This document shows positions 20,916 to 43,814 of a stretch of 64,000 nucleotides of DNA, in pieces. Origin of the DNA: an uncultured Eubacteriales bacterium (lineage in GTDB: Bacteria > Bacillota > Clostridia > Peptostreptococcales > Anaerovoracaceae); contig CADBJW010000014.1 in the NCBI GenBank assembly GCA_902795135.1, positions 23,749 through 87,748 of the forward strand. The letters are read 5' to 3'. The position numbers were made by a program, and so were the translations under genes. Under the pieces are notes generated by a model that was not told where the DNA came from, did not search any database, and worked only from the letters and a program-made list of their open reading frames with translations. Numbering within the stretch: position 1 is the stretch's first letter; every line of letters begins with the position of its first letter.

Positions 20916-22247
20916 TTAAATGAGCCCGCAGTCCTTCGCTTCCTGCTCCAGTTGGTCGCGAAAGTCAGGATGGGCCAGACCAATCATTGCACGTACCCGG
21001 TCGGACATATTCAAAACCTTCAGATTGACGCAGCCGTATTCCGTCGCTACGTATTGCACTTCGCTGCGCGGTGTTGTCACCGGTGTCCCCGGGGCAAACT
21101 GCAGTGAAATCTTGCTTTGCCGTTTTCCGTGTTTCATAAAGGAGGAGGACAGGGCGATGATCGATTTGCCGCCTTTGGACCACTGGGCCCCTTTCACGAA
21201 ATCCAGCTGCCCACCAACGGCACTCTGCTGATTGTATCCGATGGCATCGGCAACGACTTCCCCATAGAGGTTTACGGCCATGGCAGAATTGATGGAAATC
21301 ATAGCGTTGTTTTTCGCGATGTTTCGCGCATCATTGACAAAGGGGAACGGCGCCCCATAGATTTCAGGGTTGTGGTCCATGAAATCATACATTTCCTGCG
21401 TCCCGGCGGAGAAGGAAAAAACGCTCTTTCCATCCATAAAACCTTTGCGCGTATTATTAACATTGCCGTTCTTCATGAGCATCATCATTGGCTGACTGAA
21501 GAGCTCTGAGAAAATGCCAAGATCGTTCTTCGCTTTCAGGTCGTAACCGATTGCAGTCGACATTTTGCCAAGGCCCAACTGGAGGGTTGCGCCGTCCGGA
21601 ACTTCTGCAACCACGATTTCGGAGATTTTTCGCGAAATGTCATCGATTTCATCAGGCAAAAGCTCCGGCGCGTTTTTGTCCGTATGGACGATGCCGGTTA
21701 CTTTTGGATGATCACCATGGATCAGATTGTCCTGTCCAAATACGTAAGGGCTTCCGGTGTTGCTTTCCAGGAGAACGTCGCGCTTTGTCTCTTCCGCGAC
21801 GTATATATTATTGCAAATGCCAGCCGAACCGAAGCTGTAATAGCCTTCGGAGTCAGGGCGTGAAACCTGAAGAAAGCTGACATCCGGCCTGCCGATTTCT
21901 TTCATCCACAGATCGATCTGGCTAAGGTGAAACGACGTGTATTCGAAGGCCATGTTATGCTTTCTGTGGGCACCACGTTCCCCCGCGCCGAGAAAAAACG
22001 TATCGAAGATAAAAGGGTTTCCCTTTTGACCGGCGGGAATGTCCTCCGGCCAGTCGCTGTCAAACATTTTGCACGGCGAAATGGACATGGCACACAGCAA
22101 CGTGACATGTTCCAGTTCGTCTTTTCGGTCATATAAAGCATCCAGCAGCTCATAGGCAAAGCTGCTGCTGGTTCCAATATATACGCGGTCACCCGACCGT
22201 ACCTTTTGGACCGCCTCGGCAGCGGTCATATTCTTACGTTCCGTCAT
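20916..22247 (-). CDS. Acetyl-CoA hydrolase/transferase family CoA-transferase
   Basis: 443 residues of the cat1/4-hydroxybutyrate CoA-transferase type, which move CoA between acyl-CoA and a free carboxylate through a glutamyl-CoA intermediate. Seen are the N-terminal AVQKVRSGDRVYIGTSSS, LGLGKMSTAIG, the probable catalytic Glu in GIFSELFS, and GGQLDFVKGA with the glycine-rich CoA site. It is the third gene of a minus-strand operon with the desulfurase-like and His-rich proteins (50-nt gap). Since the operon is divergent from an aldehyde oxidoreductase, it may activate the acid made by that enzyme; that link is inference. AGGAAGGA precedes ATG 22247. Confidence 0.85.
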   Translation of the reverse strand: MTERKNMTAAEAVQKVRSGDRVYIGTSSSFAYELLDALYDRKDELEHVTLLCAMSISPCKMFDSDWPEDIPAGQKGNPFIFDTFFLGAGERGAHRKHNMAFEYTSFHLSQIDLWMKEIGRPDVSFLQVSRPDSEGYYSFGSAGICNNIYVAEETKRDVLLESNTGSPYVFGQDNLIHGDHPKVTGIVHTDKNAPELLPDEIDDISRKISEIVVAEVPDGATLQLGLGKMSTAIGYDLKAKNDLGIFSELFSQPMMMLMKNGNVNNTRKGFMDGKSVFSFSAGTQEMYDFMDHNPEIYGAPFPFVNDARNIAKNNAMISINSAMAVNLYGEVVADAIGYNQQSAVGGQLDFVKGAQWSKGGKSIIALSSSFMKHGKRQSKISLQFAPGTPVTTPRSEVQYVATEYGCVNLKVLNMSDRVRAMIGLAHPDFRDQLEQEAKDCGLI

Positions 22248-22276
22248 GATTCAAGAATCCTTCCTGATTTATATTC

Positions 22277-22308
22277 CTATCATTCTCCCCATTTCTATCA
22301 TTCTCCCC
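22277..22308 (-). repeat. 17-nt tandem duplication at the end of the His-rich protein gene
   Basis: CTATCATTCTCCCCA occurs at 22277-22291 and again at 22294-22308. The second copy contains the stop codon of the minus-strand gene (complement of 22298-22300). Confidence 0.6.
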
Positions 22309-23125
22309 AGAAGAAAGAAAGCAGCGTGTCGTGAAGATCCTGCAGGTTTTGCTTCTTCACGTTCTCATCAAAGAGCGCTTCCTGTGCGGCGGCCTCCTCA
22401 GGACTCCGCGTCGTTTCACGAACGTGGGGAGCTTCATCGTGGGAGTGGTTATCGGAATGGACATGGGCTAAGTGCAAGTTCGATTTGCCCATACCATATA
22501 CGAGTTCCAAAATATGAACGGCTTCAAAGCCGCGTTTCTTTAGCGTGTTGCGCAGATCCATACTGCTGGTCAGGAACGGGATGCGGGACACATCGGACGA
22601 TGGGATATCGCTGTTAGACGATGCATCGTAGAGGACGACACCCATCATATCGGCCAGTTCACGGATCGAAGCCTCGAAGCCATATTCTTCCGGCTCCGAA
22701 AGCCGATACAATTCGCGGTTGCAACCGCCGCTGACACCACGGGAAATGAGCTCCTCATAGATGGATACCGTCGGGATTTCACCAAGACTTCCCCGAAAGA
22801 ATTTTCGGTCCTCCGGAGATGTGAGAATCACCGTCGGTTTGCCCAAACTGCGCCACCGCGTCAGAAGCCTTTGCTGGTATTTGCGGTTCAGGAGAGGATC
22901 CGAGCCGTAGCCCTTGTAGAGAAGCATCCCCGTGTCAGGATGCTGGTGCAGTAAGGAATCGTACATCAAAACCACCAGTTCCGGTTCGGACTGGGCCAGT
23001 GCGATTCCAGGGTAAAGAGCAAAAGAACACTGCTCAAAAGGTGCCCCTGTTTTTTGATCAATAGGGGCACGAACGATTGTATAAGATTCGGTTTGAAAAT
23101 GCGGATTGTTGTTGGTCTGGCTCAT
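22298..23125 (-). CDS. Unrecognised protein with His-rich tail, coupled to a cysteine-desulfurase-like gene
   Basis: 275 residues, no transmembrane segment or signal peptide. I do not recognise the family. The middle has an alpha/beta look (ELVVLMYDSLL, GKPTVILTSPEDRKF, GVVLYDASSNSD, FEAVHILELVYGMG). A His/Asp cluster HLAHVHSDNHSHDEAPH at about 225-241 is a likely metal-binding stretch, and Cys residues are few. ATG 23125 sits 1 nt after the stop of the upstream PLP enzyme gene with its ribosome site inside that gene, so the two are translationally coupled. Context suggests a role with the PLP enzyme, perhaps in sulfur, selenium or metal handling for the nearby molybdenum hydroxylase. Confidence 0.75.
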   Translation of the reverse strand: MSQTNNNPHFQTESYTIVRAPIDQKTGAPFEQCSFALYPGIALAQSEPELVVLMYDSLLHQHPDTGMLLYKGYGSDPLLNRKYQQRLLTRWRSLGKPTVILTSPEDRKFFRGSLGEIPTVSIYEELISRGVSGGCNRELYRLSEPEEYGFEASIRELADMMGVVLYDASSNSDIPSSDVSRIPFLTSSMDLRNTLKKRGFEAVHILELVYGMGKSNLHLAHVHSDNHSHDEAPHVRETTRSPEEAAAQEALFDENVKKQNLQDLHDTLLSFFWGE

Positions 23126-23126
23126 A

Positions 23127-24266
23127 TTACTCTCCCTCTGCGATTTCCCGAATTGCCTTGAGGAATTCGTCGATTTCATCCAATGATGTAAACAGTCCCG
23201 GACTAACGCGTACGGTTCCGCCCAAATCAAAGGTGCCAAGCATACGATGGGTATCCGGCGCACATTGAAGACCGGAGCGTACAGAAATGTCATAGTAGGT
23301 TTCCAGGATCATGGCCACATCGGCACAGTCCATACCATCAATATTAAAGGAAACCGCCGCCGCACGAGGTGCAGACAGAGGACCGTATATCGTAACACCA
23401 GGAATCTCGCAAAGGCCATCGATGAGAACCTGAAGCGTTTTTTGTTCTTCGTGATAAATGTTGTTCACGGAGCGCTCCAGAATGTAGTGGACGCCCGCGC
23501 AAAGGCCAGAAATTCCAACGGTATTCTGTGTTCCAGCTTCGTAATAATACGGGAGCTGCTCCGGCTGCAGGCGCACTTCAGAGAATACGCCCGTGCCGCC
23601 CGAACGAATCGGTCGTGGGGAAACCGTTTCGGATACGTATAACGCACCGGTGCCCGTTGGTCCAAGGAGGGATTTGTGCCCTGGGAATGCCAGCAAGTCG
23701 ATATTCATTTTGACAACATCGATCGGAATGGCTCCCGCTGACTGGGAGGCATCCACCATAAAAGGAACCTTGTGCTCACGGCAGATCGTGCCGATTTCCT
23801 CGATTGGGTTCAGGGTTCCTGTAACGTTGGACGCGTGTGTCATAATGACCAGCTTCGTTTCCGGGCAAAAGGCCTCGCGAACCGCATCAAGATTAGCACC
23901 GGTAACGGGATCAGTCGGAACCTTTGTGACGCGGACTCCGGCATCCTCCAGGTAGGCAAGTGGTCTGGTAACCGCATTGTGTTCCATGTTGCTGGTAATG
24001 ACGTGATCACCCGGTTGGAGCATGCCCTGCAGGCCCAGATTAATGGCATCTGTTGCATTCAGGGCAAATACGATTCTGTTTGGGTCTGAAATATGAAAAA
24101 GCTGCGCTAATGCCGCCCGTGTTTCTATAATATTGGTTGCAGCTGCGCGGGCTTTTTCGGAATTCGATCTGCCCGGGTTGCCGCCCATTCGAATGGATTC
24201 TGAAACCGTATCATAGACGGCTTCTGGTTTTGGCCATGAGGTGGCCGCATTATCAAGATAAACCAT
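23127..24266 (-). CDS. Cysteine desulfurase family PLP enzyme (class V aminotransferase)
   Basis: About 379 residues of fold-type I. The start MVYLDNAATSWPKPEAVYDT, EHN near 95-97, the PLP lysine in FPGHKSLLGPTGTGALYV (about 198) and the catalytic Cys in SVRSGLQCAPDTHRM (about 335) are all present. It is closest to the short subfamily found beside selenium-dependent molybdenum hydroxylase genes in Enterococcus and clostridia (family knowledge, from memory). Likely role: release of sulfur or selenium from cysteine or selenocysteine for the cofactor. ATG 24266 has AAAGGAG 9 nt upstream; ATG 24272 is only 3 nt from it. First gene of a three-gene operon. Confidence 0.85.
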   Translation of the reverse strand: MVYLDNAATSWPKPEAVYDTVSESIRMGGNPGRSNSEKARAAATNIIETRAALAQLFHISDPNRIVFALNATDAINLGLQGMLQPGDHVITSNMEHNAVTRPLAYLEDAGVRVTKVPTDPVTGANLDAVREAFCPETKLVIMTHASNVTGTLNPIEEIGTICREHKVPFMVDASQSAGAIPIDVVKMNIDLLAFPGHKSLLGPTGTGALYVSETVSPRPIRSGGTGVFSEVRLQPEQLPYYYEAGTQNTVGISGLCAGVHYILERSVNNIYHEEQKTLQVLIDGLCEIPGVTIYGPLSAPRAAAVSFNIDGMDCADVAMILETYYDISVRSGLQCAPDTHRMLGTFDLGGTVRVSPGLFTSLDEIDEFLKAIREIAEGE

Positions 24267-24294
24267 GTTCATTAACTCCTTTGCTTGCTTTTAC

Positions 24295-24303
24295 AGTATA
24301 CCA
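24295..24303 (-). promoter_or_regulatory. Extended -10 promoter of the desulfurase operon
   Basis: On the minus strand TG-G-TATACT spans 24303 down to 24295; the -35 is weak. The leader is about 20-25 nt to the ribosome site. Confidence 0.55.
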
Positions 24304-24539: not shown

Positions 24540-27416
24540 ATGAATTTAAAGAAAATGACTCTCAAAATTAATGGCGCCGACAGGATGTTTATCTGCAATC
24601 CAGAAAAGGACACACTGGCAGATGTAATCCGTCGACTGGGCCTGACGGGAACGAAAGTTGGATGCGGCACAGGCGTTTGCGGTGCGTGCTCCGTCATTTT
24701 AGATGGCAAAGTTGTTCGTTCCTGTACGAGAAAAATTGCGAAAGTCGAAGAGTACAGCGAAATCACAACCATTGAAGGGATCGGACAGCCGAATTTCCTG
24801 CATCCTATACAGGTTGCGTTCATGCATCATGGCGCAGTTCAGTGCGGATTCTGCATCCCTGGATTCATCGTTTCAACATATCAGCTTTTGAAAGAAAATC
24901 CTGACCCGACAAGAGAAGAAGTACGTGACTGGTTCACGAAACATAGAAATATCTGCAGATGTACTGGTTATAAGCAGATCGTTGATTCCGTAATGCTGGC
25001 AGCCAAGTGCCTGCGCGGTGAAATCACAGTGGACGATCTTAAGATTCCGGAAGCTCCTGCAGGCGAACAGTACGGCAAGCCTCTCCTGCGTCCTTGCAAC
25101 CTGGCAAGAGTATGCGGCGTAGAAGATTATGGCGACGACATCGAGCTGAAGATGCCTTCCGGCACACTGCACGCTGTTATGGTTCAGCCGAGAGTTACAT
25201 TCCACGCTAAGATCAAGAGCATCGACACCAGCGAAGCTGAGAAAATGCCTGGCGTATATAAGATCGTTACAGCCAAGGACGTTAAGGCAGTCGGATGCGA
25301 CAACCGCGTTGCCTTCTTCCCGTTCACACCGAGAACACTGGCAACTGAGAAATCACACTTTGTTATAGCAGAAGACAAAATCATGAACTATGGTGACTGC
25401 ATTGCCGTTGCGGTTGCTGATACGAAAGATCACGCGAGAGAAGCGGCAGCTAAGGTTACCTTCGAATATGAACAGCTTCCTGAATACAGAAATTATCTGG
25501 ACGCTGTTAAACCGGACGCAATCCGCATCCACGACGATCACCCGAACATGTGGAGTATGCAGCCAACGCTCAAAGGCGCCGGTCACGAAACGGATAAGCT
25601 CTTTGACGATGCTCCTTATGTAGTAGAAGGCAGCTTCTACTCACAGAGAGAACCACACGCACAGATCGAATCCGATACGATTCAAGCGTACTTCGACGCA
25701 GACGGAATGCTTTGCGTACACTGTAAGGCCATGGCAATCGGCGCTCACCTGACGGACGTTGCAGAAGCAACCGGACTTCCACAGGAAAAGATTCGTATCA
25801 TTGCGAACCCTACCGGCGCGTCCTTCGGATGGTCAACCTTTGGTCAGTCATTCGCACTGGCAGCAGAAGTCTGCATGGCGTGCGACAACATGCCGGTTGC
25901 AGTATCCATGACGTATCAGGAACACATTGCTTACACAGGTAAGAGAGCACCTTCATTCTCGAACGCTAAGCTGGCATGCGATAAGGACGGCAAGATCATC
26001 GCCGCTGAATGGGACTTCGGTCTTGACCACGGTTCCTACAACGAACTGGGCGATGACCTGACATGGAGACCTGCCAGATTTACATTCTTCCCATACAACG
26101 TTCCAAACGTTAAGGGCCTGGCAAGAGTTGCTACTTCAAACCACAACTACGGCACCGCATACAGAGGATACGGTTCACCGCAGTCCTATACCTGCTCCGA
26201 AGCAATGATGGATATGATGGCTGAGAAGATCGGCATGGATCCATTTGATATTCGATACATCAACATTGCCAGAGAAGGAGATCTGAACGTCAACAGCAAG
26301 CCGTTCAGAGAATACCCGATGGAAGGCATGATGGATAAACTGAAGCCAATGTATGAAGATGCAAAAGCAGAAGTGGCTGCATGGAACAAGGATCACGAAG
26401 ACGTCAAGAAGGGCGTTGGTATCGCATGGGGCGGCTACAACGTAACCGAAGGCGCAGCAGACCAGTGTACGCTGGGTATCGAGTTGGCACCAGGCGGCAA
26501 ATTCATCAAGTATGATACATGGCAGGATGTAGGCCAGGGCGGTGACGTTGGTTCACTGATCGTTACGCTGGAAGCTCTGAAGGAATTCGGCGTTACGGCA
26601 GATGACATTATCCTTCGTCAGAACGACAGTATCTACGGCGTAGACTCCGGTTCATCCGCATCCTCCCGTCAGCACTACATGAACAGTAAGGCACTGGTTA
26701 TGGCCGTTGATAAACTGAAGAACGCAATGCGTAAGGAAGACGGTACATACAGAACTTACGAAGAAATGGTTGCAGAAGGCATTCCACTCAGATACGATGC
26801 ACAGTACACGAACTCCGATGACGAAACATTGTCCGACCTGAATCCGGATACTGGCGTTGGTGAACCAACTCCTGCATTCACATATTCCCTGTACATGGCA
26901 ATCGTTTCCGTTGACATGAAGACAGGCGTTACGACGGTAGATAAGATCGTTGGCATCGATGACGTAGGCGTAATCGGTAACCCGGTTTGTCTGGATGGAC
27001 AGGCTTACAGCGGTATCGCTCACTCCATCGGCTATGCTCTGTGGGAAGACTATGATGATGTCAAGAAGCAGAACAACCTGTACGGCATGGGCATCGCATC
27101 CGCGAACATGCTGCCAGATGACATCGAGCTGATTCACATGTGCACACCGAGAGACACGAACCCGTTCGGTTCCTCCGGCGGATCGGAAGCATTCCAGTCC
27201 GGTGACCATATGGCAGTTATCAATGCGATTAATAACGCAACAGGCGTCAGAATCCATGAACTGCCTGCAAGACCTGAAAAGGTCAAGGCCGGAATCGAAG
27301 CACTCGCGAAGGGTGAACCGAATCCGAACGTTCCTGAGAAATACTTCCTCGGATCAGACTTCCAGGAAGAAATGGAAAACATTCGTAAGAACCCTTGCAT
27401 TACAGACGAGGAATAA
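24540..27416 (+). CDS. Mop-type molybdenum hydroxylase (aldehyde oxidoreductase), paralogue 1
   Basis: 958 residues in one chain, arranged like Desulfovibrio Mop. A plant-type 2Fe-2S domain (C42, C47, C50, C62) is followed by a second 2Fe-2S domain (C102, C105, C139, C141 in CGFC...CRC). Then comes the a/b hammerhead region (about 190-320) and the large molybdopterin-binding part. There is no FAD domain, so the electron acceptor is probably a ferredoxin or flavodoxin. The conserved active-site Glu is E883 in FGSSGGSEAF. Family members oxidise aldehydes or hydroxylate heterocycles with water; the substrate is unknown here. GGAGG precedes ATG 24540, and the leader GGAGGCAATTATGAATTT is almost identical to that of paralogue 2. 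Confidence 0.92.
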   Translation: MNLKKMTLKINGADRMFICNPEKDTLADVIRRLGLTGTKVGCGTGVCGACSVILDGKVVRSCTRKIAKVEEYSEITTIEGIGQPNFLHPIQVAFMHHGAVQCGFCIPGFIVSTYQLLKENPDPTREEVRDWFTKHRNICRCTGYKQIVDSVMLAAKCLRGEITVDDLKIPEAPAGEQYGKPLLRPCNLARVCGVEDYGDDIELKMPSGTLHAVMVQPRVTFHAKIKSIDTSEAEKMPGVYKIVTAKDVKAVGCDNRVAFFPFTPRTLATEKSHFVIAEDKIMNYGDCIAVAVADTKDHAREAAAKVTFEYEQLPEYRNYLDAVKPDAIRIHDDHPNMWSMQPTLKGAGHETDKLFDDAPYVVEGSFYSQREPHAQIESDTIQAYFDADGMLCVHCKAMAIGAHLTDVAEATGLPQEKIRIIANPTGASFGWSTFGQSFALAAEVCMACDNMPVAVSMTYQEHIAYTGKRAPSFSNAKLACDKDGKIIAAEWDFGLDHGSYNELGDDLTWRPARFTFFPYNVPNVKGLARVATSNHNYGTAYRGYGSPQSYTCSEAMMDMMAEKIGMDPFDIRYINIAREGDLNVNSKPFREYPMEGMMDKLKPMYEDAKAEVAAWNKDHEDVKKGVGIAWGGYNVTEGAADQCTLGIELAPGGKFIKYDTWQDVGQGGDVGSLIVTLEALKEFGVTADDIILRQNDSIYGVDSGSSASSRQHYMNSKALVMAVDKLKNAMRKEDGTYRTYEEMVAEGIPLRYDAQYTNSDDETLSDLNPDTGVGEPTPAFTYSLYMAIVSVDMKTGVTTVDKIVGIDDVGVIGNPVCLDGQAYSGIAHSIGYALWEDYDDVKKQNNLYGMGIASANMLPDDIELIHMCTPRDTNPFGSSGGSEAFQSGDHMAVINAINNATGVRIHELPARPEKVKAGIEALAKGEPNPNVPEKYFLGSDFQEEMENIRKNPCITDEE

Positions 27417-27496: not shown

Positions 27497-28513
27497 ATGC
27501 AGGTAGGAAGATACCACAGACAAGAGATATTTTATGCGATTGGCAAAGAAGGGCAGCAAAAGCTCCAGCAGTCGCGTGTGTGCGTCATCGGTATCGGGGC
27601 GTTGGGTGCTTCGGTGGCCAACATGCTCGCACAGGCGGGAGTTGGATACCTTCGGCTGATTGACCGCGATATCGTGGAGCTCACCAATCTCCAGCGGCAG
27701 GCTCTTTTTACAGAAGCGGATGTGGAGCAGCAGCTCCCAAAGGCTGAAGCGGCTCGTATGCATATATCTCAGATGAATTCGGAAATTGAGATCGAGGCGA
27801 AAATCGTCGATGTCAATCCATATAACATTGAAAAACTGATCACGGATGTAGATGTTGTTGTCGATGGACTTGACAATCTGGAGACAAGATATTTACTCAA
27901 CGAAGCGTGTGACAAGCACAAAATCCGTTACGTTTACGGCGGTGTCGTTGGAAGCGGCGGCATGTGCATGAATGTATTGCCAGGTGAAGGACCGTGTCTG
28001 GAATGCCTGCTGGGGCCTTTGCCAGAAGAGGGGAGTTACGATACCTGTGACACGGTTGGCGTCATCAGTCCGATTACCAACATAGTAGCGTCTTATGAAG
28101 CGGCAGAAACCATGAAGCTTTTGCTGGATTCTGAGTCCGTATGCAGACAGGCGATTTCTCTGGATGCGTGGGACAGCTATACAGAATTCTTTGACGTGGA
28201 TAAGGATCCGGAGTGTCCGGTCTGTGGGAAACACCAATACACTCGGCTCGAACATAGACAAAAGAACTATACTGCTTCTCTTTGCGGACACGATGCGTAT
28301 CAGGTTACCCCGGAAGATGACGGGGCCTTTGATTATGACGCCGTCGTAGAGAGACTCAGGCAGTCAGGAGAGGTGAAGCAGAATAAGTTCTTTACGATTT
28401 TCAAAAATGAAGAAGCGGATTTCAAGCTTTTTCCGGATGGACGTGCTATAATCAATAAAGTGGCAGACGGAGATACTGCCCGTGAGATATTTGCGAAATA
28501 CATCGATCAGTAA
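27497..28513 (+). CDS. ThiF/MoeB-family E1-like adenylyltransferase
   Basis: 338 residues. It activates the C-terminal glycine of a ubiquitin-like sulfur carrier with ATP. Seen are the nucleotide loop VIGIGALGASVANML (30-44), NLQRQALF (64-71), the zinc pairs C167/C170 (CLEC) and C240/C243 (CPVC), and a Cys at 184 in YDTCDTVGVISP, the position of the ThiF catalytic Cys. The last 80 residues (LCGHDAYQV, then FKLFPDGRAIINKV) are typical of the Firmicutes form. The MoaD-like gene follows 33 nt later, making an E1/carrier pair. Position behind the molybdenum hydroxylase favours molybdopterin or cofactor sulfuration over thiamine. Confidence 0.9.
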   Translation: MQVGRYHRQEIFYAIGKEGQQKLQQSRVCVIGIGALGASVANMLAQAGVGYLRLIDRDIVELTNLQRQALFTEADVEQQLPKAEAARMHISQMNSEIEIEAKIVDVNPYNIEKLITDVDVVVDGLDNLETRYLLNEACDKHKIRYVYGGVVGSGGMCMNVLPGEGPCLECLLGPLPEEGSYDTCDTVGVISPITNIVASYEAAETMKLLLDSESVCRQAISLDAWDSYTEFFDVDKDPECPVCGKHQYTRLEHRQKNYTASLCGHDAYQVTPEDDGAFDYDAVVERLRQSGEVKQNKFFTIFKNEEADFKLFPDGRAIINKVADGDTAREIFAKYIDQ

Positions 28514-28546: not shown

Positions 28547-28789
28547 ATGATTAAAATCAAAATTTTATTTAATGGTCCGGTCAGACAACTCAATGGATGG
28601 AAAAATGTGGCCAATATTGAACTTCCGGATGGCGCGACGGGCTATGACCTTTGCGACTATTTTAATATCGTGCCGAAGAAGACCAGACTTTATGGGTTCC
28701 TGATTCGTGACGGTAAGAAGATTCCGGAGGAAACCGTCCTCAACGACGGAGACACCATCAAAGTCAACGGCAAGACGTCCGGGGGTTGA
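28547..28789 (+). CDS. MoaD/ThiS-like sulfur carrier protein
   Basis: 80 residues with a beta-grasp pattern. The C-terminus ends TSGG directly before the stop codon, the free Gly-Gly needed for adenylation and thiocarboxylate formation. Hydrophobic spacing (IKIKILFNGPVRQLNG, LPDGATGYDLCDYF, LNDGDTIKVNG) agrees with MoaD more than ThiS. It pairs with the E1-like protein encoded upstream. As MoaD it would give sulfur to molybdopterin synthase; a dedicated carrier for the hydroxylase system is also possible. GGAGAAGAG precedes the ATG. Confidence 0.88.
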   Translation: MIKIKILFNGPVRQLNGWKNVANIELPDGATGYDLCDYFNIVPKKTRLYGFLIRDGKKIPEETVLNDGDTIKVNGKTSGG

Positions 28790-28794
28790 GGGAG

Positions 28795-29033: not shown

Positions 29034-29168
29034 AAGATAAGAAGAAGTTTGAAAATTCTGTAGAGTGTTTGTCAGACTATTAAATAAGAGTTGTATAGGG
29101 CGATTTGTTTTAGCCTGATTTTTTTGACTTCCGCCCGAGTCAACTCGTCTTCGGGGGGAGGTTTTATA

Positions 29169-35200: not shown

Positions 35201-36017
35201 AGCGACGACGCCTGAAGAGGTCAATCAGATTCTCTCAAATGCGAAGTCAGCAGTTGGCGCTGTAAAGACGGATGCGCAGCTTACGCAGGAAGAGGCGGCA
35301 ACAAAACCGACGAAACCTGCTACAACGAAGCCAACAACAGCAACGACGCCGAAGAAGACAAGCAGTACGACTGCAAAGAAGACCAGGTCTGCTGCAGCAG
35401 CGGAAAAAGCCATCACAGGCATGAAGACCGATGGAGATCCACCGGGAGCCACATTTGCGAAGCTTCAGCTGAAATCGACGAAGCAGACAAAAACTTCCAT
35501 CGCACTCAAATGGATTTCCGTAAAAGGTGCGAAACAGTACATCGTCTATGGAAATGCCTGCGGGAATGCAAACAAACCGAAACAGCTTGCGAAGACAACG
35601 GGAACAGCAAAAACATTCTCAGCAGTTGCCGGTAAGAAGCTCAAGAAGGGCACGTACTACAAGTTCGTAGTCGTTGCACTCGATGCAAAGGGAAATGTCG
35701 TATCCGTTTCAAAACTGATTCACGTAGCGACAACGGGCGGCAAAGTCGGCAACCACAAGAAGGTCAAAGTAAAGAAATCGGTTACCAAGAAGGCCAAGAA
35801 GCTTAAAGTAGGCAAGACCCTGAAACTGAAAGCGAAGGCCGTAAAGAAAAAGAAGAAGGTCAAGAAACACGCCAAGGTAAGATACGAATCGACGAACACG
35901 AAAATCGCGGCCGTTACTTCCGGCGGCAAAGTTACTGCAAAGAAACGAGGCACCTGTTACATATATGCTTATGCGCAGAACGGTGTATTCAAGAGGATCA
36001 AGATAGTAGTCAAATAA
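32253..36017 (+). CDS. Surface protein, C-terminal fragment with helical tandem repeats
   Basis: 1254 residues from ATG 32253, which has no ribosome site; the same frame is open upstream as NADGLYEILRAMKLNPESLE, so it is the tail of the broken gene. Order: an Ig-like segment (1-90), beta-helix repeats (about 90-375), alanine-rich three-helix repeats of about 80 residues (about 375-1005, each with YKDxADYRD and NATTxExVxxALAAAK), and a Thr/Pro/Lys linker. A fibronectin-III-like domain (about 1065-1155) and a Lys-rich Big2-like end (RYESTNTKIAAVTSGGKVT) close the protein. No LPxTG motif or anchor helix; the basic end may bind wall polymers. An elongated adhesin is inferred. Confidence 0.7.
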   Translation: MKLNPESLELYINDLGRIQVENAIDGYYYYWKYEGKAIGSGGFNGATGEGRPYGKAAGEGTATMTVYTDNTKTEQVGQPLVCNVTVKDVSARVDGTEYTVADFQNAVAAAVSSGKVLEVYTDNGRVTLTEGQTLKVKAADNRGKGKVTVSAPAATATSMYVIEKTTDADTGITTYTCEDKGTPNVEYTAADGTKSYSAKLTMDKAGTYKLLNSFESTRTNVTAQDVVLDLNGKTVTFDTGDTYPAIMVGTTTKTGGLTIKDSSEDGTGAIVNGGGIGVWPAYRSSKLTVEGGSITAKVSAIYTSNGCTAQITGGTFKVSGEDKNFVLNCKDDNKETITVSGGTFYGFDPADNAADGEHTNYLAEGYVVKTGQDGSETTYTVVDALQAAKEEALAELNEVDADSYVESQQYKVYKLVENAKKNVEAAKSVDEVNEIMEAFRTDLAKFKTLDQAKEDAIATLEGYKDAADYRDAEKTALAEAIEAGTSAINNATTKEAVEEALAAAKAQIDELKTAAQYEAEEAEAAANATAEALAKAKSDALTELNSYKDPADYRDAEKTALRALKSEAREAINAATTPDEVAAALAAAKDEMDGLKTAAQYEEEEATAASQALAKAKTDAITALEGYKDAADYRDAEKTALAEAIEAGTSAINNATTKEAVEEALAAAKAQIDELKTAAQYEAEEAEAAANATAEALAKAKSDALTELNSYKDPADYRDLEKTAIRAIKAETREAINAATTPDEVAAALAAAKDELDELKTAAQYEAEEAEEAATAAAQALENAKADALDALNNINPADYRDTAREGQTETDKAQVENIIDSAKAAIASATTPEQVAQILDEAATSLQQIPTNQDLTEKEEKELKDAKDAAIAAIKEIMDDAADKISDADKSAAENAAMSAKLDALTATTPADAAAAAQQLTDLVNGMIQAQEAAENALATAKTDAAAALDEYISDENLAKYRDSEKQAIKDAVEEAKAAISAATTPEEVNQILSNAKSAVGAVKTDAQLTQEEAATKPTKPATTKPTTATTPKKTSSTTAKKTRSAAAAEKAITGMKTDGDPPGATFAKLQLKSTKQTKTSIALKWISVKGAKQYIVYGNACGNANKPKQLAKTTGTAKTFSAVAGKKLKKGTYYKFVVVALDAKGNVVSVSKLIHVATTGGKVGNHKKVKVKKSVTKKAKKLKVGKTLKLKAKAVKKKKKVKKHAKVRYESTNTKIAAVTSGGKVTAKKRGTCYIYAYAQNGVFKRIKIVVK
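33628..34605 (+). repeat. 492-bp tandem duplication in the surface-protein gene
   Basis: Two successive copies (from 33628 and from 34120) each encode one A-type and one B-type three-helix unit. They are nearly identical at the DNA level, including ACTGGAAGGCTATAAAGA at both ends of the period. Further diverged units follow to about 35250. Confidence 0.85.
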
Positions 36018-36101: not shown

Positions 36102-39100
36102 TTATTTTCTGATCTTATCTCTGTAGTTGAGATACTGATCGTCCTGACCTGGCTTCCAGCGTACGCCTGCTTCACCGAGTTCACCGAATTCGATGTCTTC
36201 CGGCTTTGTAGGGTTCATTGGATTTTCCTTGATGTGCTTAACAGCATCATACAGTTCGGATCCGAGGAAGTACTTCTCAGGCTTGTTCGGATTTGGTTCG
36301 CCCTTAGCCTTTGCTTCGATACCAGCCTTGATCTTATCTGGTGTTGCAGGCAGTTCATAGATACGAACGCCAACAGCGTTGTTGATCGCATTGATAACTG
36401 CCATGTGATCGGAGGACTGGAATGCTTCGGAAGCACCGGAGGAACCAAATGGACCACGAGGGTCTTCTCCGTCAACGTGGATGTAGTTGAAGTCAGGAGC
36501 ATCCGGGATATCGTTCGCATAGAGGATACCAGCCTTAACCATGTTCCAATCCTTTTCAGGATTTTCATAGTTTTCTGTGAGGGCGAATCCGATTGCGTGT
36601 GACATACCACCGTAGATCTGGCCTTCAACAGCCTGAATGTTACCAGGTTTACCAATCCATTCTACGCAAGTCATGCCAGTACACTTGGTCTTACCGGTTG
36701 CAACTTCAACGTCAACGGTAGCCAGGAACAATGCATAAGTGTAGGTGTAAGTCGGGTTACCTGATCCATCGTTTGGATCCAGATCGTAGAAGTAGTTGTA
36801 TTCATCGATCGTAGCCCAGTCACCCTGATATCTTGTTGGCAGACCTTCTGCTACCATTTCATCGTATGTTCTGTAAGAACCATCTTCTTTTCTCATGGCG
36901 TCAGCCAGGTTCTTAGCAGCAACGATCGTAGCCTTACCATTCGCATAGTGTGATCTGGAACCAGCGGATTCACCAGTGTTTGGACAATACTTGGAGTCAT
37001 CCTGGATCAGCTTGATGTCATTCGGAGTTACTTCTGGGAAGTAAGGCTTCAGAGCTTCCAGAGTACAGATGAGTGAACCCTGGTCACCGCCCTGGCCCTG
37101 ATCCTGCCAAGTGTCGTACTTTCTGAATGTTCCATCTGGCATCAGCTCGATAGCAACGTGGGATTCGTCGATTGCGCCAAGGCCAACGTTGTAGCCGCCC
37201 CATGCGATACCAACGCCCTTCTTGATATCTTCGTGATCTTTGTTCCAAGCTTCCACTTCAGCCTTCTTTTCATCGTAGATTGGCTTCAGTTTATCCATCA
37301 TCTCTTCCATTGGATAGTGGAGGTAAGGAAGCTGGTTGATGTTTGTATCTTCCGGAGTTCTAGCGATGTTCTTATATCTCAGCTCGAATGGATCGATTCC
37401 AGCTTCTTCTGCCAGCATGTCTACCAGTGCTTCGGAGCAAGTGTAAGTCTGTGGAGCACCATAGCCTCTGTATGCAGTTGTCCATGAATGGTTCGTAACA
37501 GCAGCTCTGTTCATACCTACTACATTTGGCATGTAGTATGGATAGAACATAAATCTGGATGTCTTAGTCAGCTTGTCATCACCGAAGTCAGTGTAGCAAC
37601 CTGCATCAAGACCAACTTCATATTCGCCAGCAACGAACTTGCCGTCTGCATCACAGGCCATTCTGCCGTTCCAGTAGGACGGTGAACGCTTACCGGTAAC
37701 TGCCATGAACTGCTTGTAATCCATGGACAGTGAGCAAGGCATCTTAGTAACCATCGTTGCGTATGCGCAGAGAGTCCAGTTATGTGCATTCATTGCCCAA
37801 CCGAAGGATCCGCCAGTAGGGTTTTCGATGAGACGAAGCTTATCCGCTTCGATTCCGAGGGCGTTTGCCATTTCGTCTCTATCCCAGTAGAGTGTCATGG
37901 TCTTGCAGTGTACGCAGAGGTTGTCATCTTCATCGTAATATGTCTGAGCTACGTCGCCTTCGATGGACATGTGAGGTTCTCTGGATGAATAGAAGGAACC
38001 TTCAACGGAGTATGCCGCATTTTCGATCAGTTCAGGAACATGCTCGTCATCGCCCTTCAGAACAGGCATGTTCGTGTAAACGTTCTTGCCATAAGTGTCA
38101 GGGAACCAGTCGTAGATCTTCTCAGCGTCAGGTTTAACGGCATCCAGATAATTCATGTATGCAGGCAGTTCTTCGATGTCGACTTTTACCTTGTCGACTG
38201 CAGCCTTTGCATGATCTCTGGTGTCAGCAACGACCAGTGCAACAACGTCGCCATACCATACGATTTCGTCTTCAGCCAGTACGTGGTGGTTTTCCTGCAG
38301 CTCGATGGTTCTTTCGGAGAATCCAAAGGCCATGAAGTAGTTGTTGCAGCCAATTTCCTTGATGTCCTTAGCAGTGATGACTTTCACTACGCCAGGCATT
38401 GCTTCTGCTTCTGCAACATCGATGTTCTTGATCTTTGCATGGCTGGTGATTCTTGGCATTACCATTTCGACCTTCAGAGTCTCAGCTGGCATGTGCAGTT
38501 CTACGTCATCACCGTAGTCGCATACACCGCATGCCTTAGGCAGAGCGTTCGGTCTTTCGAGAGGTTTGCCATAGAAGTTGCCGATATCCTTGGACCAGTC
38601 ATAGCGGAAGTCTTCAACAGTCTTCTCGCCTCTGAGTACTTCAGCAGCCGCCATTACAGCATCCACGATCTGCTTGTATCCAGTACATCTGCAGATGTTT
38701 CTATGCTTCGTGAACCAGTCTCTGACTTCTTCTCTTGTAGGACTTGGATTTTCCTGCAGGAGCTGGTATGCAGAAACGATGAATCCAGGAACACAGAAAC
38801 CGCACTGTACGGCGCCGCATGCAACCCAAAGTGACTGAAGCGGATGAGGATAGTTGACACTACCGATACCTTCAATTGTAGTCACCTTACTGTACTCTTC
38901 GACTTTGGCGATTTTTCTTGTACAGGAACGGATTACCTTACCATCGAGGATGACGGAGCAGGCTCCGCAGACGCCATAGCCGCAACCGATTTTCGTGCCT
39001 GTCAGGCCGAGACGGCGAAGTACGTCGGCAAGCGTGTCCTTCTCAGGATCACAGATGAACATACGGTCGGCACCGTTGATGTTCAGAGTCATTTTTTTCA

Positions 39101-39107
39101 AATTCAT
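36102..39107 (-). CDS. Mop-type molybdenum hydroxylase (aldehyde oxidoreductase), paralogue 2
   Basis: 1001 residues with the same plan as paralogue 1: C42, C47, C50, C62 for the first 2Fe-2S cluster, C102, C105, C139, C141 for the second, then hammerhead and molybdopterin domains, no FAD domain. The end of the active site reads FGSSGASEAF. It is about 40 residues longer at the C-terminus (GELGEAGVRWKPGQDDQYLN). Its N-terminal 80 residues are nearly the same as in paralogue 1, and the domain pocket segments differ more, which suggests the same maturation and partner but different substrates. ATG 39107 carries the same GGAGGCAATT ribosome site. Confidence 0.92.
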   Translation of the reverse strand: MNLKKMTLNINGADRMFICDPEKDTLADVLRRLGLTGTKIGCGYGVCGACSVILDGKVIRSCTRKIAKVEEYSKVTTIEGIGSVNYPHPLQSLWVACGAVQCGFCVPGFIVSAYQLLQENPSPTREEVRDWFTKHRNICRCTGYKQIVDAVMAAAEVLRGEKTVEDFRYDWSKDIGNFYGKPLERPNALPKACGVCDYGDDVELHMPAETLKVEMVMPRITSHAKIKNIDVAEAEAMPGVVKVITAKDIKEIGCNNYFMAFGFSERTIELQENHHVLAEDEIVWYGDVVALVVADTRDHAKAAVDKVKVDIEELPAYMNYLDAVKPDAEKIYDWFPDTYGKNVYTNMPVLKGDDEHVPELIENAAYSVEGSFYSSREPHMSIEGDVAQTYYDEDDNLCVHCKTMTLYWDRDEMANALGIEADKLRLIENPTGGSFGWAMNAHNWTLCAYATMVTKMPCSLSMDYKQFMAVTGKRSPSYWNGRMACDADGKFVAGEYEVGLDAGCYTDFGDDKLTKTSRFMFYPYYMPNVVGMNRAAVTNHSWTTAYRGYGAPQTYTCSEALVDMLAEEAGIDPFELRYKNIARTPEDTNINQLPYLHYPMEEMMDKLKPIYDEKKAEVEAWNKDHEDIKKGVGIAWGGYNVGLGAIDESHVAIELMPDGTFRKYDTWQDQGQGGDQGSLICTLEALKPYFPEVTPNDIKLIQDDSKYCPNTGESAGSRSHYANGKATIVAAKNLADAMRKEDGSYRTYDEMVAEGLPTRYQGDWATIDEYNYFYDLDPNDGSGNPTYTYTYALFLATVDVEVATGKTKCTGMTCVEWIGKPGNIQAVEGQIYGGMSHAIGFALTENYENPEKDWNMVKAGILYANDIPDAPDFNYIHVDGEDPRGPFGSSGASEAFQSSDHMAVINAINNAVGVRIYELPATPDKIKAGIEAKAKGEPNPNKPEKYFLGSELYDAVKHIKENPMNPTKPEDIEFGELGEAGVRWKPGQDDQYLNYRDKIRK

Positions 39108-39373: not shown

Positions 39374-39415
39374 CCTTGGCTGCCTTGATACGACAACCAA
39401 TTATGAGGAATGATC

Positions 39416-40039: not shown

Positions 40040-40057
40040 ATTCTCCCCCCCTATTAA

Positions 40058-40694
40058 TTAATCCCAGCCATCGATTTTTACCCGGCCGAGATAGTAGGTT
40101 CCTTTTGGAGTTTTTAGGTAGTCCTTCGCATATCCATTGTGTTCTTTTATGATCACGGAATATTTGGAAGTATTGCTTCGCTTGCTGGTCATGGACACTC
40201 TGGTTGAGGTTTTCTTATTCGATTTTCCGTTGAGCTTCATGACACGGTATGTAGCGATTTCGTCACCATAATCCGTTTCATAAGTATATACGTAATAGAT
40301 CTTCTTCCCCTTTATTGCGAATTCATCCGAATTGGTGTTTACCAAAAGCTTAAACCCTTTTCCGGAAGTTTTCTTGCGGCAAATGCTCCATAACATGCCT
40401 TCACTCCCGACAACGTAATAGAGATATTTCCCCTTTTTCTTCATACCGTAAATGTAACTGTCGGGACCCATTGGGTGACCGGTGTAGTGGAACATCTTTA
40501 CTTTTTTGACTTTGCCTTTTTTGACCGTCACCTTGTAGATGCCTTTTGCACCAGCTGCATAAACCGTTTTACCGGTTTTATACACCTGATAATAACTGGT
40601 CATCTTAGCCTTGGACGCTGCAAAAGCCGAGGTCGGCATGAACGAGATCGCAACGACCAAAAACAAGGAGACAACTCAAGATTTTCTTCTTCAT
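40058..40694 (-). pseudogene. Small secreted protein, copy B, frameshifted in the signal peptide
   Basis: Tandem paralogue of the gene at 39416. A good ribosome site (GGAGGG) precedes ATG 40694, which starts MKKKILSCLL, but the frame then runs into VFGRCDLVHADLG. The rest of the signal peptide and the whole mature protein (VVAISFMPTSAFAASKAK ...) are open in the frame one base further on, to 40058. Removing one base at about 40667 restores MKKKILSCLLFLVVAISFMP. The mature part is otherwise intact (about 185 residues), so the change is recent, a sequencing error, or a phase-variable state. A TTG at 40666 could start the downstream frame but without a charged signal-peptide start. Confidence 0.65.
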
Positions 40695-40795
40695 ATGTAG
40701 CCCTCCACTTGTTTAGTAAATAAGATATCATCACAGCTTAAGTATACCAAAGATGAGAACCGCAAGGAAGCAGTGGTGTAATACTGAACGTTTTT

Positions 40796-40825
40796 TTGTA
40801 ACGATTAGCGAAAGAATGATATAAT
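40796..40825 (+). promoter_or_regulatory. Promoter of the methyltransferase-xdhC operon
   Basis: TTGTAA (40796-40801), an 18-nt spacer, then TG-A-TATAAT (-10 at 40820-40825). Start about 40832; AAAGGAG lies before ATG 40864. Confidence 0.75.
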
Positions 40826-40863
40826 GTCAACGTTAGCGAATACATGGAACAAAAGGAGAGAAC

Positions 40864-41559
40864 ATGGCAATACAACGACCAGGTGGATTTGATATAACGG
40901 AACGGGGCCTGAAACTGGCGAGTTTCAAGAAAGGCAGCAAGATTCTGGACATCGGATGCGGCGGTGGAGATACCGTCAATTACTTGAACGAAAAGGGCTA
41001 TAAGGCGGAAGGCATCGAGATCAATCTCGTCAAAATCAGCGAAGCCAAAGAGCAATTTCCGGACATCGATGTCAAATTCGGGGACGGCGGATTCCTGGAT
41101 GACTACTTGTCCTTTACCTTTGATGGAATCATCATGGAGTGCTCCCTGAATGGGATCGTACAGCCGGACGAAGCGCTCCACGAAGCCTACTGCGTTATGA
41201 AAAAGGGCGGCCGTCTGATTATTTCAGACTTCTACGAAAAGGATCCCGAACCGAATCAGCTCAAGGCAGTTGCCATCGAAGCAGCCCGCAGGGCCAGACT
41301 GCCTCGAAATGAGGGGGATTGCGAGGAAGGCACACCGGAGCATTTTGTGGATTTCCGGTTTGGCGGAGCATTCTACAAAGAGCCCCTCATCAAACAGTTA
41401 GAAGAGGAAATCGGATTCCGTGTGATGAAGTTCGAAGATTATTCGGACAAGCTGGGAGACGGGTTCGAAGCTTTTGCACCAACCCTTGACAAACAGGCAG
41501 GCGGCAAAAGCAGAGACATCGGCTATTTCCTGCTGGTCGCTCAGAAACCGTTGAAGTAA
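40864..41559 (+). CDS. Class I SAM-dependent methyltransferase of the Mo-hydroxylase cluster type
   Basis: 231 residues. The SAM-binding motif ILDIGCGGGDTVNYL is at 33-47, with the acidic second motif AEGIEINLVKI and TFDGIIMECSLNGI as motif IV. The start PGGFDITERGLKLASF and the ECSLN motif match a methyltransferase group that I recall as a regular neighbour of Mop-type aldehyde oxidoreductases in Desulfovibrio and clostridia (named after DVU_1556). The target of methylation is unknown. The xdhC gene starts 11 nt later, so the two are co-transcribed. Confidence 0.8.
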   Translation: MAIQRPGGFDITERGLKLASFKKGSKILDIGCGGGDTVNYLNEKGYKAEGIEINLVKISEAKEQFPDIDVKFGDGGFLDDYLSFTFDGIIMECSLNGIVQPDEALHEAYCVMKKGGRLIISDFYEKDPEPNQLKAVAIEAARRARLPRNEGDCEEGTPEHFVDFRFGGAFYKEPLIKQLEEEIGFRVMKFEDYSDKLGDGFEAFAPTLDKQAGGKSRDIGYFLLVAQKPLK

Positions 41560-41570
41560 AGGAGGAACAA

Positions 41571-42440
41571 ATGGCACAGCCAGTATCGTATATCGCGAGA
41601 AAATTTATTGAAGAAAACATCGACTTCGCCATCGCGAAAGTCATCGAAACCAAAGGCTCCGCTCCGAGAAAACGGGGCGCAGCTATGATTATGACCCCGG
41701 AAGGAAACTTCTACGGGACCGTTGGCGGCGGCCTTTTGGAAGCCAGAACCCAGGAGCTCTGCAAGAAGGTCATGGAGACCAAGGAAGGACTCACTTACGA
41801 ATTTATTCTGGATGAACAGCAGCAGGGTGAGAACGCGTTGGCTATGGGATGCGGCGGCGATGCCACCATTCAGGTCGACTACATCGAAGCGGCAAACCCG
41901 GGAAACTTTGTGGAAGAATTCAGGCTGAAGAGCGACGCGTACATCTTTGGCGGCGGCCATGTGGCATACGCCCTGGAGCCTTTGCTTCGGCATGTGGATT
42001 TCACCACGACGGTCATCGACGACCGGGAAGATTACGCCAATGCGCAGCGCTACCCAAAGGCAGAGCGAGCCATCGTCTGCAGCGATTTCGATCATTGCTT
42101 TGATGAAATCGAAACCGATGAGGATAGCTACATTGTCATCGTGACGAGAGGACATCGCGGTGATCTGCAGGTGCTCCGGCAGGCGCTCCGCAGACCAAAC
42201 GCTTACATTGGCATGATCGGCAGCAAGCGAAAAAATAAGCTTTTGTTTGATGAGCTTCTGCAAGAGGGCGTGACGCAGGAAGAACTGGATCGCGTGCATG
42301 CTCCCATTGGGCTGGAAATCAAGTCGGAAACACCGGAAGAAATCGGCATCAGCATTACAGCGGAAATGATCCAGATCCGGGCCGAAAAAGCAGAGCGTGA
42401 AATGCGGTTTCGGGAAGTGGCTGACATCCACGCGGACTAA
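41571..42440 (+). CDS. xdhC: XdhC/CoxI family molybdenum cofactor maturation protein
   Basis: 289 residues. XdhC binds molybdenum cofactor, protects it and hands it over sulfurated to xanthine-dehydrogenase-type enzymes. The N-terminal part has KGSAPRKRGAAMIM and GTVGGGLLEA, then AMGCGGDATIQVDYIE with the conserved Cys-Gly-Gly. The C-terminal Rossmann half contains AYIFGGGHVAYAL (about 124-136), VIDDREDYAN and IGMIGSKRKN. This is the key link between this operon and the two hydroxylases in the window. AAAGGAGG precedes the ATG and the next gene starts 12 nt after its stop. Confidence 0.93.
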   Translation: MAQPVSYIARKFIEENIDFAIAKVIETKGSAPRKRGAAMIMTPEGNFYGTVGGGLLEARTQELCKKVMETKEGLTYEFILDEQQQGENALAMGCGGDATIQVDYIEAANPGNFVEEFRLKSDAYIFGGGHVAYALEPLLRHVDFTTTVIDDREDYANAQRYPKAERAIVCSDFDHCFDEIETDEDSYIVIVTRGHRGDLQVLRQALRRPNAYIGMIGSKRKNKLLFDELLQEGVTQEELDRVHAPIGLEIKSETPEEIGISITAEMIQIRAEKAEREMRFREVADIHAD

Positions 42441-42452
42441 GAGGATATAGGC

Positions 42453-43814
42453 ATGAGAATAGGGTATCAGAGAGAATCAATCGATCAATATAAAAACTAT
42501 ACAGCGGTGATTTTGGCGGCGGGACTGTCTTCAAGAATGAAAGACTTCAAGCCGCTTCTGGCCGTGGATGGGCGCACGGCCCTCGAAGGACTGATTGAGG
42601 CGGCAAAAGGCGCCGGAATCGGGAGCATCATCGTGGTGACGGGTCATGAACGTCTGCAGATAGAGGAGGTTCTTCGCAAAGCCGATGTGACGGAAGCATA
42701 CAATGCAGACTATAAAGACGGCATGTTTACGTCGATTCGTACGGGTCTTGCAAAAGCATTGGAATTAGACGCTCCATCCGGGAGCATGAAGGGCGTGCTC
42801 TTGATGCCGGTGGATTGTCCACTCATCAGCATTCAGGTGCTCCGAAGGATCATGGATGCAGCGGGAAACAATTTCGCCGTGCCGACCTACGAAGGGAAAA
42901 AAGGACATCCGCTGTTCATTCCAAAGGAACTGATGGAGGACATTCTTGCCCATGACGGAGAGGGCGGACTGAAGGCCGTTACGGACCGTTATTGGGACCG
43001 GATGGATCGCGTACCAGTCAATGAAGAAGGCTGCATTATGGACATGGACACGCCGGAAGGATATGCGGAAATCGTGAAGTTCGTGGAGAATGGGTTTACC
43101 AGAACAAAACTGTCTGTTGCTGCGGCAAGGCGCCGGTTTATTCTGGTGCGTCATGGACAGACGCGACAGCATGACGAGTCTATGTTCATCGGCCAGTACG
43201 ATGTTCCGCTCAGCGATGAAGGGCGGCAGCAAATGAAGCAGGCCGGTGAAGAAATCAGTACGTGCATGCAGGACCATTATGTCGGTGATGTCCGGCGGGA
43301 TGTGTTTGGGAACGCCCTGGAAAAAGACATGCCGGACTGGAGCAATACCGTCTATTGCAGTGATCTGATCAGGGCCTCCGAATCCGGGGAAATCCTGGCA
43401 AAGGTCTTAGAAGAGACAGGCGCCATGGTGGAAGATTTCGAGAACGGCGTTTTCCCGACAGGCGTTGAAGTAAAACCACTGGAAGGGTTGCGGGAACTGA
43501 ATCTGGGTGAATGGGACGGCAAACCGGTCCGTGAAATCAAAGAACGTTTTCCGGAAGAATATGAGCGACGAGGCAAGGATCTATTCGTGTTCAAGACCGG
43601 GAATCATTCCGAAAACTTTTATGATATGCAGTACCGCGTTATGAAGTGCTTGCGGGAAATCCTCTCAAAAGACGATGGCAAAAACATTGTCATCGTTGCA
43701 CACAGCGGAACGATCCGGGCACTGGCAAATAATTTGAAAGGCCTTCGTGTCAACGATTCATGGGAGCCCGTGGAGAAGGGTCAGTATATCGAAATCGAGG
43801 TCGAACCTCGTTAG
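42453..43814 (+). CDS. MobA-like nucleotidyltransferase fused to a histidine phosphatase
   Basis: 453 residues in two domains. Residues about 15-215 form a MobA/YgfJ-type NTP transferase (VILAAGLSSRMKDFKPLLAV, LMPVDCPLIS, GKKGHPLFIPKEL, DMDTPEGY), the kind that attaches CMP or GMP to molybdopterin. Residues about 225-453 form a histidine phosphatase (ILVRHGQTRQHD with the catalytic RHG, later IVIVAHSGTIRAL). The fusion suggests that a phosphate is removed from a cofactor precursor or by-product during cofactor maturation. The third gene of the operon with the methyltransferase and XdhC. It converges on mnmM with only 10 nt between stops and no visible terminator. Confidence 0.88.
   Translation: MRIGYQRESIDQYKNYTAVILAAGLSSRMKDFKPLLAVDGRTALEGLIEAAKGAGIGSIIVVTGHERLQIEEVLRKADVTEAYNADYKDGMFTSIRTGLAKALELDAPSGSMKGVLLMPVDCPLISIQVLRRIMDAAGNNFAVPTYEGKKGHPLFIPKELMEDILAHDGEGGLKAVTDRYWDRMDRVPVNEEGCIMDMDTPEGYAEIVKFVENGFTRTKLSVAAARRRFILVRHGQTRQHDESMFIGQYDVPLSDEGRQQMKQAGEEISTCMQDHYVGDVRRDVFGNALEKDMPDWSNTVYCSDLIRASESGEILAKVLEETGAMVEDFENGVFPTGVEVKPLEGLRELNLGEWDGKPVREIKERFPEEYERRGKDLFVFKTGNHSENFYDMQYRVMKCLREILSKDDGKNIVIVAHSGTIRALANNLKGLRVNDSWEPVEKGQYIEIEVEPR

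Follow-up and report, generated by a model that had tools for sequence, protein, structure and literature searches.

A 64,000-nucleotide stretch from an uncultured Eubacteriales bacterium of the family Anaerovoracaceae (contig CADBJW010000014.1; G000:C14:23749-87748 in our labels, where G, C and L numbers stand for genomes, contigs and loci; referred to below as the window) carries two FAD-less molybdenum hydroxylases, Mop1 and Mop2, among genes for cofactor maturation. We think it likely that these genes form a compact variant of the Mop maturation cassette and that they serve the two hydroxylases, which are old paralogues, by the mechanism proposed below. The basis for this is gene content, synteny, co-occurrence with Mop, and the lack of a match to the radical SAM protein TrsS in the source genome (2.08 Mb, 39 contigs, 91% complete) and in 11 relatives of the same layout. 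The missing TrsS, together with a missing dicluster flavoprotein, is the most interesting point, and was absent from an earlier account of the window made from its letters alone (the sequence-only reading).

Gene content and relation to the DVU_1551-1559 cassette

The genes of the set are as follows.

20916..22247, minus strand: divergent CoA-transferase of the butyryl-CoA:acetate type (AcetylCoA_hyd_C, 183 bits; TIGR03948, 281 bits, cut-off of 675 not reached)
22298..23125, minus strand: P22k, a stand-alone HdrB-like (CCG-type) module without the putative cluster cysteines (NF045663, 41 bits; hhalign)
23127..24272, minus strand: cysteine desulfurase of the TIGR01977 subfamily (423 bits, above the cut-off of 377; RSGLQCAPDTH motif)
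24540..27416, plus strand: Mop1, FAD-less molybdenum hydroxylase (Pfam domains, NF045668)
27497..28513, plus strand: E1, adenylyltransferase of the MoeB/ThiF type (ThiF, 234 bits; GxGALG and two CxxC motifs)
28547..28789, plus strand: MoaD-like protein with a GG end (C-terminus; no family match of its own)
36102..39107, minus strand: Mop2, FAD-less molybdenum hydroxylase (Pfam domains, NF045668, PDB 1dgj)
40864..41559, plus strand: methyltransferase related to DVU_1556 (NF045667, 126 bits, cut-off 155)
41571..42440, plus strand: XdhC-type maturation factor (NF045664, 314 bits, cut-off 350; XdhC_C and XdhC_CoxI)
42453..43814, plus strand: fusion of a MobA/MocA-like nucleotidyltransferase and a histidine phosphatase (NTP_transf_3, 117 bits; His_Phos_1, 124 bits)

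The hydroxylases, the desulfurase, the E1/MoaD-like pair and the methyltransferase-XdhC-fusion operon all lie where the sequence-only reading had placed them; the identity of the gene at 20916 as a CoA-transferase, and the extra gene at 22298-23125, go beyond it.

Judged by its family matches, the set is a divergent relative of the NCBIfam cassette named after Desulfovibrio vulgaris DVU_1551-1559, whose families are NF045668, NF045667, NF045664, NF045665, NF045646 (TrsS), NF045666, NF045669 and NF045663. The Mop, methyltransferase, XdhC and nucleotidyltransferase of the window match families of that cassette, each below the cut-off. Unlike it, the window adds E1, the MoaD-like protein and the desulfurase, while TrsS and the full-length flavoprotein are not matched in the source genome. 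A full cassette in a relative, such as that of L051, holds TrsS, the DVU_1553 ligase, the DVU_1555 protein, the methyltransferase, XdhC, the fusion, Mop and the flavoprotein, the last a 775-aa NAD(P)/dicluster protein with an HdrB-like end.

Absence of TrsS and of the dicluster flavoprotein

No match to TrsS was found in the source genome (E ≤ 1e-40), nor was a full-length NF045663 flavoprotein, the best match there (132.8 bits, cut-off 530) covering the NAD(P)-binding part at model positions 18-201 of 759. Among 20 Mop genomes of the family, NF045663 is complete or partial in 18. A phmmer search confined to the window gave no match to the DVU_1553 CoA ligase or the DVU_1555 protein.

Within the genus (49 genomes) a Mop match (E ≤ 1e-50) is present in 40 and TrsS in 14. 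Layouts were classified from 20 stretches of 18 genomes; G107 (L123), which has neither layout, was excluded, and 30 other genomes of the genus, nine of them with TrsS, stand outside the classification. E1 lies beside Mop in 12 genomes, including the source, and the flavoprotein lies beside Mop in six. TrsS is matched in 0/12 of the former versus 5/6 of the latter (Fisher p = 7e-4), and the flavoprotein-layout genome without it, G083, is 86% complete. The shared order in the E1 layout is CoA-transferase, P22k and desulfurase, then Mop1, E1 and MoaD-like gene, then Mop2; the CoA-transferase adjoins P22k in five of the ten E1-type genomes in which that neighbour is visible. The same pattern is seen among the family Mop genomes, where an E1 of the window type occurs in 3/3 without TrsS versus 2/17 with it (p = 0.009; 0.035 without the source genome).

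An ordinary DVU_1551-1559 cassette, with TrsS and the flavoprotein hidden in the 9% of the genome that is not assembled, would fit the presence of the same core families and the 91% completeness. We regard this as very improbable, given the result for the 12 E1-layout genomes, the gap of 11 bp between the methyltransferase and XdhC genes, where many relatives carry DVU_1553 and/or DVU_1555, and the finding that neither Mop of the window adjoins the flavoprotein gene.

If the compact-variant reading is right, the retention of the hydroxylases, methyltransferase, XdhC and nucleotidyltransferase in a lineage without a TrsS match, together with its sulfur-relay genes, hints at the roles of the missing genes, and E1-type genomes are a natural comparison for testing the function of the TrsS set. 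One bolder reading is that TrsS, DVU_1553 (an adenylate-forming ligase) and DVU_1555 (cysteine-rich) on one side, and the desulfurase, E1 and MoaD-like protein on the other, would be alternative routes for one step of Mop cofactor synthesis, the delivery of sulfur (or selenium), and were swapped in the lineage of the window. The counts of TrsS against E1 given above for the genus and the family speak for it. We hold this reading to be unlikely; were it true, P22k would carry sulfur or metal and be new in that role. In the open-access literature searched, TrsS appears only as a table entry, with nothing on the DVU_155x companions and no function in print.

Co-occurrence with Mop across the family

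The sequence-only reading assigned all these genes to one cofactor pathway. This was examined in 60 family genomes, the source among them, with each listed genus represented once; 20 of the genomes have Mop (match above 700 bits). The methyltransferase was counted at 120 bits or more (next score 95) and E1 of the window type above 300 bits (next score 164). Methyltransferase and Mop occur together in 17 genomes, Mop alone in three, the methyltransferase alone in one and neither in 39 (p = 5e-11), and the one genome with the methyltransferase and no Mop call (G024) holds a fragment of Mop where a contig ends. TrsS is found in 18/60 genomes, which are the methyltransferase set minus the source genome plus G001. 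E1 of the window type occurs in five genomes, all with Mop (p = 0.003; 0.009 without the source).

The nucleotidyltransferase was compared in the 23 genomes with best matches (at least 163 bits). The fusion was judged by its RHG motif (33/38 open reading frames, some of them one contig under two locus names) and, for the window protein and 12 others, by Pfam. The two-domain nucleotidyltransferase-phosphatase form is present in 14 genomes, 13 of them with Mop, and a three-domain form in four, one of them with Mop; in the remaining five (G012, G014, G022, G028 and G050) the frame had no motif, was cut by a contig end or was not read. XdhC with the two-piece model match of the window protein occurs in 13 genomes, 12 with Mop, and a one-piece match in three, one with Mop. 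G031 is the exception in both the two-domain and the two-piece class. Homologues lying mostly in genomes without Mop would have spoken against a common pathway, and the opposite was found (methyltransferase 17/18, fusion 13/14, XdhC 12/13 with Mop). The proposal of one functional set is supported; for E1, the MoaD-like protein and the desulfurase, the tie to Mop is their synteny within the genus.

Several points weigh on the other side. The genomes share ancestry and the cut-offs were chosen after the gaps in score had been seen, so the p-values overstate the case. G031 (L064, G031:C154) has XdhC and the fusion and no NF045668 match; these genes are possibly leftovers or serve another client enzyme. 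Outside the genus, G001 and G017 combine TrsS with E1, and G030 combines the flavoprotein with E1; the two sets are thus not strictly exclusive. Single absences could be gaps in a source genome that is 91% complete. Finally, MoaE, which the MoaD role requires, was matched in 10/80 genomes, always weakly, and not in the source genome (E ≤ 1e-5).

The hydroxylases

Mop1 and Mop2 each have Fer2, Fer2_2, Ald_Xan_dh_C, MoCoBD_1 and MoCoBD_2 in a single chain, in the order of the Desulfovibrio gigas enzyme, and the domain scan found no FAD domain in either. Both [2Fe-2S] cysteine motifs are present in the two proteins. A glutamate, which we take to be the active-site residue, occupies the corresponding position in Mop2 by alignment and in Mop1 as read by eye. 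Mop2 residues 6-927 align with the D. desulfuricans aldehyde oxidoreductase (PDB 1dgj) at 764 bits. The window proteins thus resemble the aldehyde oxidoreductases of D. gigas and D. desulfuricans (PDB 1sij/1vlb and 1dgj) as one-chain FAD-less enzymes with [2Fe-2S] motifs and the aligned glutamate, and differ from them in forming a pair of paralogues and in having a C-terminal extension. Against NF045668 they score 1098.2 (Mop1) and 1092.8 bits (Mop2), missing the curated cut-off of 1100 by 2 and 7 bits, so they are not filed as that equivalog. They were the only proteins found by a PF02738 search of the source genome.

Identity between Mop1 and Mop2 is 90% over residues 1-80, 76% over residues 81-160 and 54% over the remainder, and their start sites share ttcaaa-y-ggaggcaatt-ATG-aattt. 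Domain content, identities and start sequences therefore agree with the earlier description of two FAD-less hydroxylases with near-identical N-termini and ribosome sites. In a tree built by a quick method (61 rows, 60 different) Mop1 and Mop2 fall in two clades; since other genera occur in each, the duplication predates the genus. The similar N-termini reflect the ordinary conservation of a [2Fe-2S] domain. Two other explanations were considered and set aside. A common electron acceptor in the lineage that lacks the flavoprotein was rejected after comparison of residues 1-80, with a mean identity within genomes of 0.86 in the 12 E1-type genomes versus 0.82 in seven flavoprotein-type pairs. For gene conversion over residues 1-82, nucleotide identity was 0.78 within the window versus a mean of 0.75 between the window Mop1 and Mop2 of other genomes, with no clear signal.

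Elsewhere, L047 (G047:C2:111158-115601) has a partial extra Mop copy, with an in-frame TGA in one of its matched pieces, immediately 5' of a full Mop close to the NF045668 model.

E1, the MoaD-like protein and the desulfurase

The hallmarks of a MoeB/MoaD pair are present, with a GG end on the small protein and intact ATP and CxxC motifs in E1. The GG C-terminus is kept in all 12 genomes of the genus in which the protein was seen. The window MoaD-like protein matched no Pfam or NCBIfam family; weak matches to ThiS are given by its distant homologues at L061:11862-12101 and L094:4316-4561. G020, which belongs to a different genus, has a run of genes in a single direction, MoeA-MoaA-MoaC-MOSC-MoCF-E1-MoaD-Mop2, in which the MoaD-like protein also ends in GG. 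In G017, the desulfurase and E1 adjoin a ferredoxin, a tungsten-type aldehyde:ferredoxin oxidoreductase (AOR) and a weakly matching ThiS-like protein. These two neighbourhoods support a role in molybdenum or tungsten cofactor synthesis for the predicted E1, MoaD-like protein and desulfurase.

The E1 family is known in general to serve several thio-products, and the nearest solved relatives of the window protein are ThiF and MoeB, with ThiF the nearer. The E1/MoaD pair and the desulfurase might then be an unrelated sulfur relay, for tRNA thiolation or thiamine, placed here by chance. We consider this improbable, as E1 of the window type was seen in Mop genomes only, the synteny is kept in 12 genomes of the genus, and E1 lies in the cofactor gene run of G020 and beside the tungsten-type AOR of G017.

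According to parts of Iyer et al. 2006 (PMC1779556), MoaD and MoeB genes lie beside the gene for tungsten AOR. The window resembles the arrangement described there in having a dedicated E1 and MoaD-like gene beside a molybdenum or tungsten enzyme, and differs in that the partner is a Mop of the xanthine-oxidase family. The scanned genes of the window include no AOR; relatives with one near parts of the set include G017, G070 and L094.

In the source genome, the region 6367-9627 of L046 (G000:C12:38000-48341) has a second XdhC-like gene, in which the two model parts are in reverse order; it is followed by a NifS-type desulfurase and then by MnmA.

The selenium question

The desulfurase subfamily had been linked in the sequence-only reading to selenium-dependent hydroxylases, and a selenium-dependent system, in which the desulfurase and SelD would supply a selenido ligand to Mop, was weighed. 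The source genome does hold selD, with an in-frame TGA (L085, G000:C3:20000-36000, region 4870-7248), on a contig other than that of the window. The window desulfurase belongs to the EF2568 subfamily, which in Enterococcus faecalis neighbours selD, MobA-like and XdhC genes according to passages of PMC2432076. As described in those passages, the EF2563-EF2572 neighbourhood is like the window in combining a class V aminotransferase (desulfurase), a MobA-related protein, XdhC and a hydroxylase, and unlike it in that the selD of our source genome is unlinked and has its own desulfurase. This second TIGR01977 protein, adjoining selD in L085, matches the selenocysteine lyase SclA below cut-off and scores higher for it than the window desulfurase does (356 versus 319 bits). 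The Mop proteins reach 361 and 359 bits against the Se-XDH model, whose cut-off is 830. Over the 60 family genomes selD is above cut-off in 19, namely 6/20 with Mop and 13/40 without (counts of 6, 14, 13 and 27; p = 1). The expected selD is thus present and does not track Mop. With these results the proposed selenium link falls, and we give the selenium-dependent system very little credence.

P22k

P22k starts one base past the desulfurase stop codon. In a profile alignment it matches the HdrB-like part of the dicluster flavoprotein over 224 columns (hhalign, probability 100%, E = 6.4e-43). Ten cysteines that would bind the clusters, judging from the flavoprotein, are kept in 13/13 aligned flavoproteins, and nine aligned E1-type copies of P22k have 0/10 of them; in L118, L100 and L053 the copies have five, six and one of these cysteines. 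A GGC cysteine, followed by a His-rich stretch, is kept in 12/12 aligned copies of P22k. As L118 carries both flavoprotein and P22k, the latter is a separate module and not mere remains of a lost flavoprotein gene. At a guess, it may carry sulfur or metal. Lacking these cysteines, it raises the question of how the Mop proteins pass on electrons without the usual flavoprotein. A profile search of the PDB with P22k gave a single match (E = 0.72), and an AlphaFold2 model from a two-row alignment (pLDDT 41) was discarded.

Proposed mechanism

In the mechanism that we infer for the compact set, the desulfurase would take sulfur off cysteine, and E1 would adenylate the GG end of the MoaD-like protein, leading to a thiocarboxylate that would supply the dithiolene sulfurs of molybdopterin in the manner of MoeB and MoaD. 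The desulfurase, or the same relay, may also pass the terminal sulfur of the molybdenum centre to XdhC. The nucleotidyltransferase half of the fusion would attach CMP (cytidine monophosphate), giving the cytosine dinucleotide cofactor, and XdhC would insert it; further maturation steps may fall to the methyltransferase and the phosphatase half. Mop1 and Mop2 would each oxidise an aldehyde of its own, or a related substrate, to the acid, with electrons passing to a carrier such as ferredoxin or flavodoxin and not to the dicluster NAD(P) flavoprotein found beside Mop in relatives, and the CoA-transferase encoded next to the set may activate the resulting acid.

In Rhodobacter capsulatus, the desulfurase NifS4 sulfurates the XdhC-bound cofactor, as described in part of PMC2997495. 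The window is like that system, so far as described there, in that XdhC and a cysteine desulfurase accompany the enzymes, and unlike it in that a cytosine dinucleotide cofactor is expected and the pairing of XdhC with the desulfurase is a putative one.

The methyltransferase-XdhC-fusion operon

The XdhC and fusion genes are separated by 12 bp. The operon directly follows Mop2 in L108 and L088; in others it is found at another place or falls outside the stretch that was fetched. The fusion protein has intact LAAGLSSRM, RHGQT and AHSG motifs and matches NF045665, the model for DVU_1551, at 199 bits (cut-off 315) over model positions 1-213 of 359. Four family members (L015-L018) exceed that cut-off and join a nucleotidyltransferase, an HD domain and a histidine phosphatase; they come from three genomes without Mop and from G035. 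The window fusion is without the HD domain. The idea that HD replaces the phosphatase in proteins of that level was dropped, as the whole frames of L015-L018 hold both. A literature search on the MocA/histidine-phosphatase fusion returned nothing relevant.

Other architectures were seen among the relatives. A nucleotidyltransferase/histidine-phosphatase fusion at L051:2794-4794 has DUF5714 as a third domain, and at L063:7446-8372, L113:10337-11263 and L031:1393-2421 the nucleotidyltransferase is joined to a LysR-type helix-turn-helix domain, with no phosphatase.

Surface genes and other neighbours

The remaining genes between and beside those of the set are:

29091..36017, plus strand: three inserted surface-protein genes, outside the system (Big_2 matches in two of the three)
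39416-40666, minus strand: two related small genes (DUF5050 match in one)
43825-44499, minus strand: MnmM

The MoaD-like gene and Mop2 are 62-550 bp apart in 9/12 E1-type genomes. Surface genes separate them by 7.3 kb in the window and by 17 kb in G071, and in L112 the methyltransferase lies between; 10/12 have no surface genes there. In G071 (L110/L111) the interval between E1 and Mop2 has a second insertion at the same place, made up of a GGDEF gene plus three others that each encode about 1400 aa; two of these three are weakly similar to the window surface gene. The sequence-only reading held that insertion of the surface locus had split the pathway into several transcripts. The locus is indeed an insertion, and 10 of the 12 genomes of the same layout lack it. 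The splitting does not hold, as Mop1-E1-MoaD and Mop2 are convergent, so that no operon was divided, and relatives share the several transcripts.

Two further genes of the window lie apart from the set. At 46879-48393, a GNAT acetyltransferase is fused N-terminally to TsaD, adjoining TsaE and a second, partial TsaD match. The gene at 16529-18445, next to a seryl-tRNA synthetase gene, encodes 638 aa and includes the catalytic domain of a glutamine synthetase.

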